64,000 nt of DNA, from assembly GCF_009827575.1 (NCBI RefSeq), contig NZ_WTYR01000001.1, positions 2,701,001 to 2,765,000 on the forward strand, written 5' to 3'. Below, one piece after another: positions 56,847 through 61,313 of the stretch (positions within the stretch are counted from its first letter, which is position 1; every line of letters starts with the position of its first letter). A model generated the notes under the pieces. That model was given only the letters and a program-made list of their open reading frames with translations. It was not told the DNA's origin and ran no database searches. The translations under genes were made by a program, and so were the position numbers. This DNA comes from Alteriqipengyuania halimionae (GTDB lineage: Bacteria > Pseudomonadota > Alphaproteobacteria > Sphingomonadales > Sphingomonadaceae).

Positions 56847-57613
56847 AATGGATCATGCAATTCGGACGCGATGCAATCGGCAGCTTCGGCGACGGCTTGC
56901 GCGCCATGAAAGGGCTCCCCTGGCTGTTTGCCGCGATCGTCCTGTGGGAATTCGCCCAGCATATCGTCGAAGTCCGGATCGGGATGTTCGAGAGCGTCGA
57001 GCAGGCGCGCGCTGTCGGTGGCGATGCGTTGCGCATGGTGTTCGGCTGGATCAAGATGCTTTCGGTCTATCTGGGCGGGTTCTTCGTGATCCGCTACCTT
57101 GCTTTGCGCAACGATGGCCTCGCGCTCGCGCCTGTGGGCACGGCGCTGGGCCGCTATGCGCCGTATCTCGTCTACTCCTTGATCCTGTTTGCTGCGATCT
57201 TCTACACACGGGCATTTGCTCCCGCGGCCCATGTCGACACGATCAGGGCCGTGGTGGGCCTGTCGCAGGTCCTCGTCGAACCGTTGCTGATGGCGTGGGT
57301 CGTTGCAACCGCGACCGACGGGGCGATTGGCAACCCGCTATCCTCGGCAAGGCGCACCGGCTGGCTCTACCTTTATGCGCTGCCGCTGTTCCTGCTCGTG
57401 CGCATTCCGATCAATCTTTTGCACGGCGCACTGAACTCGGAGGCGATAGGGCGATCGCAAGGAGTCTTGTGGAGCATGCTTGCGGTCGATGCCGTCGTGG
57501 TCGGCATCCTGATCGCCGTCGTTCCCGCGATCTCGGTGAGGGTGGCACGGCGCATCCGCGAGAAACAAGCGAATGTCACTACGCAGCACGCGGCGACCTC
57601 GGTCCCGGCCTAA
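56843..57613 (+). CDS. Polytopic membrane protein of unknown function
   Basis: A 256-residue protein with about six predicted helices: GLPWLFAAIVLWEFAQHIVEV; MLSVYLGGFFVIRYLAL; YAPYLVYSLILFAAIFYT; VLVEPLLMAWVVATA; WLYLYALPLFLLVRIPINLL; and AVDAVVVGILIAVVPAISV. A basic C-terminal tail faces the cytoplasm. I recognise no family. The ATGA overlap with the XRE gene puts it under the same promoter, so it is probably a third component of the DUF2975/XRE unit. The 3' end overlaps the convergent methionine gene by four bases. Confidence 0.78.
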   Translation: MKWIMQFGRDAIGSFGDGLRAMKGLPWLFAAIVLWEFAQHIVEVRIGMFESVEQARAVGGDALRMVFGWIKMLSVYLGGFFVIRYLALRNDGLALAPVGTALGRYAPYLVYSLILFAAIFYTRAFAPAAHVDTIRAVVGLSQVLVEPLLMAWVVATATDGAIGNPLSSARRTGWLYLYALPLFLLVRIPINLLHGALNSEAIGRSQGVLWSMLAVDAVVVGILIAVVPAISVRVARRIREKQANVTTQHAATSVPA

Positions 57614-58746
57614 CTGTCCAGCGCGCGGCCAAGATCAGCGATGATATCGCTGGCCGCTTCCAAACCGACCGATAATCGCAGCAGGCCCGGCGTAATTCCC
57701 GCCCGGGCCTGCGCTTCGTCGGGCATACCGCGATGGGTCATCGTTGCGGGTACGCAGATCAGCGAGGAATGGGCCCCGAGCGAGCTGGCGAGGTTCACCA
57801 GTTCCAGCCGATCGAGAAAGGCCTCAACCGCCGGACTTCCGCCGACCAGGTCGAACGCGATCATGAAACCGGGCCCCGTTTGCTGTTGCTCCGCCAGCGC
57901 ATGGTCGGGGTGATCGGTGAAGCCCGGATAGTGGACCGCGGCGACCGCGTCGTGATCCGCAAGATAATCCGCGACCGTCCGCGCGTTCGCTTCCATCGCG
58001 GCGACGCGCAGGGGCAGGGTGCGCAGACCGCGCAATGTGCGCGCGGCGGCATCGGGCGAGCCGAACAGTCCGGCCGCATTGGCCCAGAACTCGATCCGCT
58101 CGATCAGCGCGGCATCGCGCGCGAGCAGTGCCCCGCCCACGCAATCGCCATGGCCGTTAATCGCCTTGGTGGTCGAATGCATCACGAGGTCGCAGCCTAA
58201 GGCGAGCGGTTGCTGCCGGCACGGCGTAGGGAGCGTATTGTCGGCGACGGTCAGCGCGCCGGCTTTTTTTGCCTTGGCGGCGACGCTGGCGATATCGGTC
58301 AGCCGGAGGAGAGGATTGCTCGGCGTCTCGATCCACACCATCGCCGTCTCGGTCGCGAGCGCGGCGTCGAGGGCATCGTCGTCGGTCAGGTCGACGAATT
58401 CGACCGACAGCCGGCCTTGCTCTGCCAGCGCCTCGAGCAGGCGATAGGTCCCGCCATAGCAGTCGTGCGGCGCAATCACCCGGGCAGAGGAGGGGATCAG
58501 GAGCAGCGCGAGGAGCGCCGCGGATTGCCCGCTGCTCGTCACCACGCCGCCGTTCGCGCCTTCGAGTTCGGCCAGTCGCGTGACCAGTTCGTCGCGATTG
58601 GGATTGGCGCTGCGCGAATAATCGGGCGAGGGCTTTTCGTCGGGGCTGTCCCAGCGATAGCTGTCGGATCTTCGTAGCGGTGCCACGATATCGCGCCCTT
58701 CGCGGCTGGCGGCCGCGACCACCGTACCCGGTGCGCGGCTGCTCAC
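57610..58746 (-). CDS. Cystathionine gamma-synthase family PLP enzyme
   Basis: Trans-sulfuration enzyme of 378 residues. The Schiff-base lysine is Lys194 in MHSTTKAINGHGD. PLP-binding residues are in SSGQSAALLALLLI, APHDCYGGTYRLLEA and VADNTLPTP. It uses acyl-homoserine with cysteine (cystathionine gamma-synthase, metB) or with sulfide (metZ/metY); the sequence alone does not separate these. The start is GTG 58746, overlapping the metX stop (GTGA). It is the last gene of the hom-metX operon behind the SAM riboswitch candidate. Its neighbour metX gives the acylated homoserine it needs. Confidence 0.87.
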   Translation of the reverse strand: MSSRAPGTVVAAASREGRDIVAPLRRSDSYRWDSPDEKPSPDYSRSANPNRDELVTRLAELEGANGGVVTSSGQSAALLALLLIPSSARVIAPHDCYGGTYRLLEALAEQGRLSVEFVDLTDDDALDAALATETAMVWIETPSNPLLRLTDIASVAAKAKKAGALTVADNTLPTPCRQQPLALGCDLVMHSTTKAINGHGDCVGGALLARDAALIERIEFWANAAGLFGSPDAAARTLRGLRTLPLRVAAMEANARTVADYLADHDAVAAVHYPGFTDHPDHALAEQQQTGPGFMIAFDLVGGSPAVEAFLDRLELVNLASSLGAHSSLICVPATMTHRGMPDEAQARAGITPGLLRLSVGLEAASDIIADLGRALDS

Positions 58747-59759
58747 AATCCTGGCACCAGCGGGGCGACAAGGCTGGCAATCGCGCGCGGCTCCTTCAGA
58801 AAGGCGTCGTGGCCATACAGGCTGGAGATCGCATGGAAACGCGCATCGGGCAGCGCTGCGGCCAGATCTTCGAGCTGTTCGAGCGGGACCAGACGATCCT
58901 CCGCCGCGCCGATGACCGTTACCGGCACGCGAATGGCGCGCGGGTCTACGCGGTGGCGGTCGATCGAGGCGCTGAGGCTGAGGAAGCGGCCGGGCGACAT
59001 CACCGCGTCGAACCCGTCGCCGCGCGCGCGAAGGTAAGCACCGGCCGGCGACGCGTCGGTGGGCGCGGAGCCCTCTATCCCGCTGGCGAAACGCGCGCCG
59101 AATTCCTCCGCCGTGCGATAACAGGTCATGCCGAGCCCGCGCGCGATCGAGAGCGCTTCCGCGCCGCGTCCGCTTTCGAGACCAAGCGCGACCACGCGGC
59201 GCTGCAACTCACGCTGCGCGCTGGCAAACGGGTGGGGGGAAGCAGGTGCAGAGATCGCCGCCACGCGGCCCACCCTTTCGGGGCGCTCCGCTGCCAGCGC
59301 AAGCGCGACCATCCCGCCATAGGATGCGCCCAGCACCAGATCGGCGCGTGCGATACCCAGCGCATCGAGCGCGGCACAAAGGCACGCGGCCTGATCGCCG
59401 GTGGAGGGCGCGAAACCCCCGCTCGGATCGGCGGCGAATTCGATGCCGACCACACGAACACGATCCGGATCGACCGCGCAGCCACGTCCTACCACGCCTT
59501 TCCACCAGGTCTCGTCGCCTGCCGGGGCCACCACCTCGGGCGTGGCCGATATTCCGCCGAGCACCACCACAACGGGCGCGGCGGAGGGACCGATGGCGCA
59601 AGCACGGAAGGGCGCCAGCTTGTTTGCCAATTCTTCGGGAGGCGCGACCTCGACCTGTCGCAGGCAACAGTCGGTTTCCGGATCGACCGTCCGCGGTTCT
59701 TTTTTCGGTGTGCCCGTAATTCGGGCTTCGGTAATTCGGGGTTCGGCGAGGGCGCTCAT
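58743..59759 (-). CDS. metX: Homoserine O-acyltransferase (MetX type)
   Basis: Alpha/beta-hydrolase of 338 residues that acylates homoserine from acetyl- or succinyl-CoA. The catalytic triad is visible as Ser146 in GASYGGMVAL, Asp288 in GAAEDRLVP and His317 in LYGHDAF. Whether it takes acetyl- or succinyl-CoA cannot be said. The N-terminal 20 residues contain a 15-base tandem repeat encoding RITEA-like units. The ATG at 59759 overlaps the homoserine dehydrogenase stop (ATGA), so hom and metX are co-translated. Confidence 0.88.
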   Translation of the reverse strand: MSALAEPRITEARITGTPKKEPRTVDPETDCCLRQVEVAPPEELANKLAPFRACAIGPSAAPVVVVLGGISATPEVVAPAGDETWWKGVVGRGCAVDPDRVRVVGIEFAADPSGGFAPSTGDQAACLCAALDALGIARADLVLGASYGGMVALALAAERPERVGRVAAISAPASPHPFASAQRELQRRVVALGLESGRGAEALSIARGLGMTCYRTAEEFGARFASGIEGSAPTDASPAGAYLRARGDGFDAVMSPGRFLSLSASIDRHRVDPRAIRVPVTVIGAAEDRLVPLEQLEDLAAALPDARFHAISSLYGHDAFLKEPRAIASLVAPLVPGL

Positions 59760-60757
59760 CGGGCCAGCTCCGCTGCGATGGCGCGAAGATCGCCCATGAT
59801 CGCCTCTGCGGTCGGCTCACCGCCGGCACCCGGGCCGTGACACGAGAAGCGCTGCCCGCCTTCCAGCGCGATGGTCGCCACGTTGCCTTCGCCGTCGGGC
59901 ACATCGCCCGCGAACCCGTCGGCCGGCACCAGGCTCACTGTCGCGCAGGTCGGTTTGATCACGCAGGCCTGGACATAGCGCACGCCCGACGCCGCGATCT
60001 CGGCGGCGCGTGCCGGGGTGAGCGGCTCGACCATCACCGGATAATCGTCGGGCGCATGGCCGAAGGCTTCGGCGGCGACGATCCGGCTTTTCGCGGTGGC
60101 ATCGGCGCCGGAAAGATCGTTGGTCGGGTCCGCCTCGGCGAGCCCTGCTGCCTGCGCCGTCTCGAGGGCAGACTGGAAATCGGTGCCGCGTTCAATTTCG
60201 TGGAGGAGGTAATTGAGCGTGCCGTTGAGCACCGCGTCGATCCGCGCGATGTTTCCGGCCGACCTGGCTTCGGCGACGGTTTCGAGAACGGGGGCGCCGC
60301 CGCCCACCGCCGCGCTGAAGCGCAGTTGTGCTCCATGGTCGCGTGCCAGTTGGGCGAGCGCGACATACTCGGCGTCGATCACCCGCTTGCTCGCGCTGGC
60401 CAGCGACTTTCCGCGCGCCAGCACTGCCCGGCTGACTGCGAGGCCGACTTCGTCGCTGCTCAGCGCATCGACGAAGATATCCGCCTCGCTCGCGGCGAAA
60501 GCGGCTGCATCGGTGATCGGCGCTATCTTCGGCTTCACCGCGCGGGCGCGCGCCGGATCGCGCACCAGCACAGCAGTCAATTCGAAGCGTGGATCATCCT
60601 CGATCGCGCGGACCAGGGCCGCGCCTACGGTCCCGAGCCCTGCTACCGCCACCCGGATCGGATCAGTTTTGCTGTCCGGGGAGGGAGCCGAGCTCTCGGT
60701 GGTACACTGGTCCTGGCGCGGGGCCGGGCCGTTGGAAAATTCGGAAATCGCAAGCAC
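59756..60757 (-). CDS. hom: Homoserine dehydrogenase without ACT domain
   Basis: NAD(P)H-dependent reduction of aspartate semialdehyde to homoserine, the branch point to methionine. The 333-residue product has the Rossmann motif VAVAGLGTVGAALVRAIEDD. The substrate domain shows VLNGTLNYLLHEIERGTDFQSALETAQAAGLAEADPTNDLSGADA. The usual C-terminal ACT (threonine-inhibition) domain is absent, since the family is about 430 residues when present. This suggests a methionine-dedicated copy controlled through RNA. GTG 60757 is proposed as start, with AGGATACGAG just before it; a frame extending to 60829 runs into the riboswitch region. Confidence 0.87.
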   Translation of the reverse strand: MLAISEFSNGPAPRQDQCTTESSAPSPDSKTDPIRVAVAGLGTVGAALVRAIEDDPRFELTAVLVRDPARARAVKPKIAPITDAAAFAASEADIFVDALSSDEVGLAVSRAVLARGKSLASASKRVIDAEYVALAQLARDHGAQLRFSAAVGGGAPVLETVAEARSAGNIARIDAVLNGTLNYLLHEIERGTDFQSALETAQAAGLAEADPTNDLSGADATAKSRIVAAEAFGHAPDDYPVMVEPLTPARAAEIAASGVRYVQACVIKPTCATVSLVPADGFAGDVPDGEGNVATIALEGGQRFSCHGPGAGGEPTAEAIMGDLRAIAAELAR

Positions 60758-60799
60758 GTCTCGTATCCTCGAATACGGTGACGATACTGCCTTTTGGAT

Positions 60800-60912
60800 A
60801 ACCCCGCTCGGTTGCCCTTCTGGCCGCATCGTCCTGTTGACAGGACCGCCACCTTGCCCGGGAGGGCAGGTTGGCGTGGCCGCGAACGAACTCGCGCCAC
60901 TCTTGATGCAGA
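60800..60912 (-). ncRNA. S-box-type (SAM-I/SAM-IV-like) riboswitch candidate before the methionine operon
   Basis: On the minus strand the core has P1 (60905-60909 pairing with 60826-60830), then ATCAAGAG. P2 is GTGGC/GCCAC (60896-60900 with 60876-60880). P3 has GCCAACC...AGGTGGC with an inner TGCCC/GGGCA stem (60848-60875). P4 is an almost loopless hairpin GTCCTGT/ACAGGAC (60831-60846). The order, the AACC/AAGG internal bulges in P3 and the P1-closing GATGC are those of the SAM-I superfamily. Past P1 a GGGCAACC...GGGGTT segment could be the pseudoknot of SAM-IV. The operon behind it makes methionine precursors, as expected. A downstream hairpin (60767-60781 region) may hide the GTG-start Shine-Dalgarno. 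Confidence 0.72.
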
Positions 60913-60937
60913 CGGCAGGATTTCTCCGGTCCGTCTG
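60909..60937 (-). other. Accessory hairpin 5' of the riboswitch core
   Basis: CAGACGG (60909-60915) pairs with CCGTCTG (60931-60937) around a 15-base loop, directly 5' of P1 on the transcript and sharing two bases with it. It may stack on P1 or be a transcription-start structure. Confidence 0.35.
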
Positions 60938-61020
60938 GTTCCATGACTAGGATGGCGCGCGCTGCGGGTCAACCCGTATCCGTATCGGCGGGAAATCGTG
61001 CGCGCCGATGCAAATATCGC

Positions 61021-61049
61021 TTGGCGGGGACGGTAAATAAGGCGATAAT
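61021..61049 (+). promoter_or_regulatory. Promoter of the small acidic lipoprotein gene
   Basis: TTGGCG (61021-61026) and GATAAT (61044-61049) are spaced exactly 17 bases. This predicts a start near 61056 and a leader of about 27 bases carrying AGGAA before ATG 61083. Confidence 0.7.
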
Positions 61050-61082
61050 ATGGCGGTCAATCATGACACAGGAATCACGAAT

Positions 61083-61313
61083 ATGAAAAAGCTTGTTCTC
61101 GTCGCTCTCCTTCCGTTCGCCGTCGCCGCTTGCGACAAGCCGGCCGACGAAACGGTTGCGGAAGAAGAAGTCGTTGAAGTCGAAGCCGCTCCGGTTGACG
61201 CCACCGCGACCGACCCGATGACCGCCGAGACCCCGGCCGCCGACGCCATCGCCACCGACGCTCCGGTCGGCGAAGAAACCCCGGCTCCGGAAGCGACCGA
61301 AACCCCGATGTAA
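61083..61313 (+). CDS. Small acidic lipoprotein, 76 aa
   Basis: A 76-residue protein. Its signal MKKLVLVALLPFAVAAC ends in lipobox VAAC (Cys about 17). The rest is low-complexity acidic and proline/alanine/threonine rich (DETVAEEEVVEVEAAP, then TPAPEATETPM) without a fold, like a periplasmic spacer. A Shine-Dalgarno AGGAA precedes the ATG. The gene has its own promoter and a strong terminator, so it is expressed alone. Composition resembles the linker of the lipoprotein at 28832-29359. Function unknown. Confidence 0.8.
   Translation: MKKLVLVALLPFAVAACDKPADETVAEEEVVEVEAAPVDATATDPMTAETPAADAIATDAPVGEETPAPEATETPM

Follow-up and report, generated by a model that had tools for sequence, protein, structure and literature searches.

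The leader described here has its closest described counterparts among the SAM riboswitches. According to the available text of one report, the SAM-I/IV riboswitch has an undivided P2, keeps P4 and is without PK-1, and the SAM-IV riboswitch carries P5 and PK-2 (PMC6890682). The "SAM-I-IV-variant" of Weinberg et al. 2010 is presented, in the available text, as sharing features of SAM-I and SAM-IV while being without the P2 internal loop (PMC2864571). A riboswitch-controlled met operon that includes hom has been described in Xanthomonas campestris, where a SAM-I riboswitch governs metA-metB-hom mainly through translational control by SAM (PMC7270179, available text). Our leader resembles that system in preceding a met operon with hom and in its presumed translational control; the two differ in that the Xanthomonas leader is a SAM-I riboswitch with a tRNA-sensing platform before metA-metB-hom, whereas the leader examined here is of the SAM-I/IV class and precedes hom-metX-CGS. 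In some Alphaproteobacteria, SAM-II/SAM_alpha (RF00521) controls hom-metXC or metA, and for the Sphingomonadales (7 genomes) the available text of the same study gives SahR-type control alone (PMC4239095). Cobalamin riboswitches have been reported in a Sphingomonas, and the available text of that report makes no mention of a SAM riboswitch (PMC6970198).

We scanned the window, meaning the whole 64-kb stretch of DNA that was analysed, with the covariance models of Rfam release 15. The SAM-I/IV riboswitch (RF01725) was matched on the minus strand at 60914-60798 over its full length (model positions 1-99 of 99), scoring 54.0 bits where the gathering score is 41.1 (E 4.6e-6 for the 64-kb window). 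No other riboswitch match in the window exceeded its gathering score, and this one again stood alone when matches up to E 10 were listed at 60700-61000, a listing that shows only the best of overlapping matches within one clan. Across the 2.81-Mb genome, RF01725 was matched nowhere but in the hom leader up to E 10. The initial annotation had called a SAM riboswitch of the S-box (SAM-I) type and had proposed a scan with the SAM-I, SAM-IV, SAM-I/IV and SAM-II models; that scan upheld the riboswitch but not the S-box label, given that RF01725 was the best class at the locus. Because the best clan match was RF01725, we assigned the leader to SAM-I/IV and rejected SAM-I (RF00162) as its class; the covariance model confirms this class, for which SAM binding is predicted. 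We consider it very improbable that the leader is a SAM-I riboswitch after all. It does share the core blocks and P4 with SAM-I, and SAM-I is the switch ahead of metX in 9 of the 11 related loci that were scanned, as well as in one genome from within the family. Apart from the clan result, however, a genome search that scored 150 of 170 candidates gave no SAM-I match up to E 10 (its positive control gave a match in 7 of 14 genomes), the P2 helix is without an internal loop, and both P5 and a covarying pseudoknot between the P3 loop and the tail are present. SAM-II, which has another fold than SAM-I/IV, was rejected as the class, with no match in the window or up to E 10 at 60700-61000; a genome search (150 of 408 candidates scored, positive control silent) likewise gave no SAM-II match. 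SAM-IV (RF00634) was also rejected, given that RF01725 was the clan best and that no SAM-IV match fell at the locus; the one SAM-IV match in the genome (18.4 bits; 150 of 584 candidates scored) lies elsewhere. The leader resembles SAM-IV in having P5 and PK-2 after P1, but according to the available text (PMC6890682), SAM-IV has PK-1, a divided P2 and no P4, whereas the window leader has P4 and an undivided P2.

All of the features that follow lie on the minus strand. Directly downstream of the leader are the three genes that had been proposed as its operon: hom (59756..60757), encoding a homoserine dehydrogenase of 333 aa with an inferred GTG start at 60757 and no ACT domain reported; a metX-type homoserine O-acyltransferase gene (58743..59759), whose best NCBIfam model was PRK08775 at 284.7 bits, under that model's cut-off of 296; and a CGS/metB gene (57610..58746), which domain matches place as a cystathionine gamma-synthase-like PLP enzyme. 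An in-frame ATG at 60829, inside the 3' strand of P1, is an alternative start for hom and would let a gene finder begin hom inside the riboswitch (357 versus 333 aa).

The aptamer (60798..60914) shares with SAM-I/IV its core blocks, P1, P3, P4, P5, PK-2 and a P2 without internal loop, and the window copy keeps intact the core blocks that do not vary across the family. The conserved elements and the order of P1, P2, P3 and P4 read in the initial annotation are present, as is its closure of P1 by GATGC: the 5' strand GCATC (60905..60909) pairs with the 3' strand GATGC (60826..60830), an assignment based on the Rfam match and covariation. P2 (60876..60900; strands 60900-60892/60885-60876), drawn from the sequence and the Rfam alignment, is one undivided helix with a single bulged G at 60881. 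P4, GTCCTG/CAGGAC (60831..60846; strands 60846-60841/60836-60831), was identified from sequence and covariation, and P5, GCC/GGC (60814..60824; strands 60824-60822/60816-60814), from the Rfam match and covariation. P3 (60848..60875) was identified from the Rfam match, a swap test and covariation, and its loop UCCCG (60863-60859), the 5' side of PK-2, can pair with the tail CGGGG (60802..60806), the 3' side, which is likewise backed by the swap test and covariation. We aligned 41 family aptamers, which comprised 27 of the 28 family loci (L027 left out) and 14 new loci from g54, another genus of the same family. Measured against the structure including the pseudoknot, 94.6% of 1260 pair cells held standard pairs, 16 of 31 pairs had changed on both sides, and 95 double-change cells were counted versus 34.6 in shuffles, a number that 0 of 500 shuffles reached. 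The helices thus covary in the related genomes, as the initial annotation had asked of P1 to P4. In P4, all 4 counted pairs showed double-sided changes and 98.1% of cells were paired, and P5 was paired in 94.5% of cells. The SAM-IV-type pseudoknot that had been suspected also gained support, with double-sided changes in 4 of the 5 PK-2 pairs and 75.7% of cells paired, a figure that is low partly because the tails of threonine-aldolase-type loci sit one column out of register in this alignment. When the P3 loop of each locus was paired with its own tail or with the tails of other loci, own tails were favored among the class loci (25 loci, 0 of 5000) and the family loci (24 loci, p 0.0016); the hom-type group of 17, in which PK-2 shows little variation, gave p 0.16. 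The fold of the 201-nt leader had a z of -3.4, with 0 of 200 shuffles as good.

The window leader differs from SAM-I/IV as described in adding a helix that abuts P1 and, by our reading, an anti-P1 translational platform. The added helix, P0, is a hairpin of CAGACGG/CCGTCTG (60909..60937; strands 60937-60931/60915-60909) that lies outside the Rfam match and whose last G doubles as the first base of P1. The initial annotation had recorded this 7-bp hairpin directly 5' of P1 and treated it as extra; the hairpin is there, but its arms are matched across the leaders of the lineage. The region 60940-60900 with P0 has a predicted folding energy of -15.6 kcal/mol (z -4.4), which 0 of 200 shuffles reached. 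In an arm swap among the 17 hom/metX-type leaders, whose mean ungapped upstream identity is 0.29, the own arm paired at -12.15 versus -8.78 kcal/mol for the arms of other loci (0 of 5000 permutations), and the result held when the near-duplicate L151 was removed (0 of 20000) and when the window locus was removed as well (0 of 20000). For the 24 other family leaders this swap yielded p 0.70, and for the 25 class leaders p 0.03. When the upstream arm was shuffled instead, 0 of 500 shuffled sets reached the mean of the hom/metX-type group, compared to 161 of 500 for the other family leaders and 115 of 500 for the class leaders. Single loci reached p<0.05 in the fixed-window test in 6 of 17 hom-type, 4 of 24 other family and 2 of 25 class leaders. 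We relied on the swap and fixed-window tests because a free-end shuffle test was weak (no more than 3 of 60 shuffles did as well in 5 of 17 hom-type, 2 of 24 other family and 1 of 25 class leaders). Collectively, this comparative evidence indicates that P0 is a lineage-specific helix supported at the level of the group rather than of the single locus; given the p of 0.03 in the class group, P0-like pairing may also occur outside the hom/metX-type lineage. The predicted probability of P1 in the window leader was 0.72 with P0 and 0.56 without it, a small shift that fits a tuning role. The sequence TTGACC lies at 60972-60967, about 30 bases upstream of P0, and it is our guess that it could set P0 at the 5' end of the transcript; a scan for consensus promoters found none on the minus strand there.

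Downstream of the aptamer, the anti-P1 segment GTATCGTC (60780..60787) is complementary to GACGATGC (60833-60826), which is made up of the 3' strands of P4 and P1, or can instead pair with the start-codon region; a GGC immediately 5' of GTATCGTC can reach P5. The predicted anti-P1 duplex of the window has an energy of -17.7 kcal/mol (p 0.03 versus 300 dinucleotide shuffles). Of the 101 overlapping 16-base stretches into which the aptamer can be divided, 8 form a better duplex with the segment than the tested stretch does. Among the 17 hom/metX-type leaders, this complementarity had a mean z of -3.4 and p<0.05 in 15, the others standing at 0.050 and 0.053. The segment has two sequence solutions, a GGCAGCRTCGTCC type and a AGCCACATCTCCC type, and both are complementary to the same strands. 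The mean z in the 24 other family leaders was -1.1, and because just 6 of these 24 reach p<0.05, the anti-P1 platform appears, from these comparisons, to be lineage-specific. The leader tests leave out L027 and L056, both under the Rfam cut-off, and the class leader tests leave out L033 and L059, which have short flanks.

When not paired with P1, the same segment could contribute to a start-codon-masking stem (60754..60787), in which the hairpin CGTATT/GATACG (60777-60762) is extended by CGTC/GACG (60783-60780/60760-60757) onto the first base of the GTG; a Shine-Dalgarno-like GAGG (60770-60767) lies within this stem. The CGTAT/ATACG hairpin at the ribosome site had been noted in the initial annotation and is indeed present before the GTG, but it is the inner part of this longer start-masking stem rather than a stand-alone ribosome-site hairpin, and by itself its fold has a z of only -1.9 (12 of 200 shuffles as good or better). 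We rejected this hairpin alone as a mask of the Shine-Dalgarno sequence, given that predicted Shine-Dalgarno access is unchanged with P1 (p 0.75 over 17 leaders, in which the starts of L150 and L154 were one base off) and that start-codon access changes. Computed with the corrected starts of L150 and L154, and with PK-2 and ligand energy omitted from the folding, the unpaired probability of the window start codon was 0.06 with P1 forced, 0.58 with the 5' strand of P1 withheld and 0.12 with both P1 strands withheld, a condition that makes the anti-P1 pairing impossible. The means over the 17 leaders under the same three conditions were 0.28, 0.49 and 0.33 (p 0.0017 and 0.020). Withholding P1 produced no rise in start access in 4 of the 17 (slightly lower in L145 and L156, unchanged in L150 and L154); access stayed high (0.72-0.88) with both P1 strands withheld in L003, L145, L152 and L156; and the predicted anti-P1 probability was at most 0.05 in L146, L148, L150 and L154. 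Because the unconstrained probability of P1 in the window leader is 0.59, the model describes this leader as nearly bistable.

Since it is start-codon access and not Shine-Dalgarno access that follows P1, we read the platform as one that would mask the start codon, being OFF with SAM. A working aptamer could instead stop transcription early, through Rho or by another route. In the wider class, SAM-I/IV leaders such as L032 and L048 have a hairpin with a T run, which could point that way, but hairpins of this type could equally mask the ribosome site, no terminator-like site was found at 60700-61100, and the complementarity conserved among the leaders runs on into the stem at the start codon, and we regard control by termination as unlikely here. 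Ten class leaders (L032, L036, L037, L041, L044, L045, L047, L048, L053 and L057) have a hairpin 3' of the aptamer. Most of these hairpins are of a CTCC/GGAG type, a T run often precedes the ATG, and they could serve either as terminators or to mask the ribosome site. For the window leader, comparison across loci showed a predicted aptamer, a pseudoknot and a post-aptamer segment complementary to strands of P4, P1 and P5, and we consider it likely that this SAM-I/IV riboswitch represses translation of hom-metX-CGS at high SAM. In this model of start-codon masking, SAM binding would stabilize P1, P4 and PK-2 and leave the segment 60787-60780 available for pairing around the GTG start, which would extend the CGTATT/GATACG hairpin and hide the start codon. 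When SAM is absent, the segment would invade P1 and P4, and the start codon would be released. P0 probably stacks on or insulates P1 and would thus bias the switch.

The first gene that would be controlled in this way, hom, is the sole source of a homoserine dehydrogenase domain (PF00742) found in the genome, and by Pfam at E 1e-5 no ACT domain was found in this hom or in the AK-hom proteins of G185 and G228. Two proteins (L140:3755-5473 and L141:2068-3828) combine aspartate kinase and homoserine dehydrogenase domains in a single chain behind a SAM-I/IV leader, and no ACT domain was reported in these fusions. Given that no ACT domain was found in hom and that it carries the only PF00742 domain found in the genome, the host may regulate its homoserine supply largely through SAM-dependent translation of this gene. 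The other genome of the genus (G059, rated 99% complete) had no match to PF00742, SAM-I/IV or metX and is a possible methionine and threonine auxotroph. The Lon-like gene that flanks the operon is 84% identical in that genome, where the ORFs beside it differ by eye, and nothing matching the other flank of the operon turned up in 4 genomes; these comparisons did not establish that the operon sits at a conserved site.

The SAM-I/IV class occurs patchily among relatives. RF01725 was matched in 27 of 249 sampled genomes of the same family (26 over the cut-off), in 26 of 289 sampled genomes of the class (25 over the cut-off), in 1 of the 2 genomes of the genus and in 16 of 26 genomes of g54. The patchiness, together with a sister genome in which both the aptamer and a hom domain are missing, could suggest a relic whose fold is still recognizable and whose regulation has been lost, but the core blocks are intact, the match is full length and above the cut-off, and the anti-P1 and P0 pairings are intact, so that we find a relic highly improbable and retain a functional riboswitch as our reading. 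Judged by N-terminal sequence, the first genes of the 28 family loci were metA (12), threonine-aldolase-like (7), hom or AK-hom (3), threonine-dehydrogenase-like (1) and unassigned (5), and those of the 16 g54 loci were AK-hom (5), hom (3) and metX (8), with two of the AK-hom proteins run in Pfam. The threonine aldolase and threonine dehydrogenase names are ones that we presume from the look of the sequences rather than from a model at that level. Pfam placed the first-gene proteins of L007 and L046 as homoserine O-succinyltransferase, those of L020 and L024 as beta-eliminating lyase, that of L021 as zinc alcohol dehydrogenase and that of L045 as methylenetetrahydrofolate reductase. The SAM-I/IV leaders of L020, L022-L026 and L028 (aptamer from 1501) stand before a threonine-aldolase-like gene, and that of L021 before a threonine-dehydrogenase-like gene. 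One genome (G115) has two SAM-I/IV aptamers, L015 before metA and L028 before a threonine-aldolase-like gene, and another genome of the class (G532) has four SAM-I/IV matches (L033, L057, L058 and L059).

The metX pathway itself is served by more than one switch class. MetX relatives at E 1e-20 or better were found in 3 of 199 sampled family genomes, namely the window genome, G185 (57% identity, in the same SAM-I/IV operon) and G023 (45%); G228 and other g54 genomes also have metX and possibly lie outside the 199-genome sample. In G023, within the same family as the window genome, a SAM-I riboswitch (87.5 bits) precedes metX-CGS, and a 6S RNA match (55.1 bits; L142:3336-3492, minus strand) adjoins that SAM-I-led operon. 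Among named genomes, the best 80 of 549 MetX relatives (39-49% identity) include examples from Brevundimonas, Asticcacaulis, Rhodanobacter and Dyella, and 11 of these 80 were scanned with Rfam: SAM-I stood directly before metX in 9, and the other two (L077 and L081) had no riboswitch above the gathering score. The initial annotation had noted that alphaproteobacterial met genes often use SAM-II, which holds for some of them according to the available text (PMC4239095), but the class met in these related metX loci was SAM-I. Different SAM switch classes thus serve one pathway in related bacteria, given SAM-I in 9 of the 11 metX loci and in G023 and SAM-I/IV in the window and in g54. That one class was exchanged for another, in whichever direction and by whichever route, is something that we infer. 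Among the matches listed in a literature search lying mostly outside subscription papers, no title or abstract opening described SAM-I/IV before hom-metX.

In summary, our analysis settles the class of this methionine-operon leader as SAM-I/IV and offers a concrete, mutable model of a SAM-I/IV expression platform together with a new peripheral helix. The riboswitch class is a known one; what is new, as judged by comparison, is the P0 helix and the platform in this lineage. We tentatively entertain, at somewhat less than even confidence, the full combination: a SAM-I/IV form with an added, covarying P0 that sets the stability of P1 against the anti-P1 segment, that stands on a pathway otherwise commonly served by SAM-I and that, by controlling the only homoserine dehydrogenase domain found, may let SAM also gate the homoserine supply to threonine in this organism. 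The wider scan suggests that SAM-I/IV leaders of the family also precede metA and threonine-aldolase-like genes, and threonine breakdown may be under SAM control at those family loci with threonine-aldolase-like or threonine-dehydrogenase-like genes.
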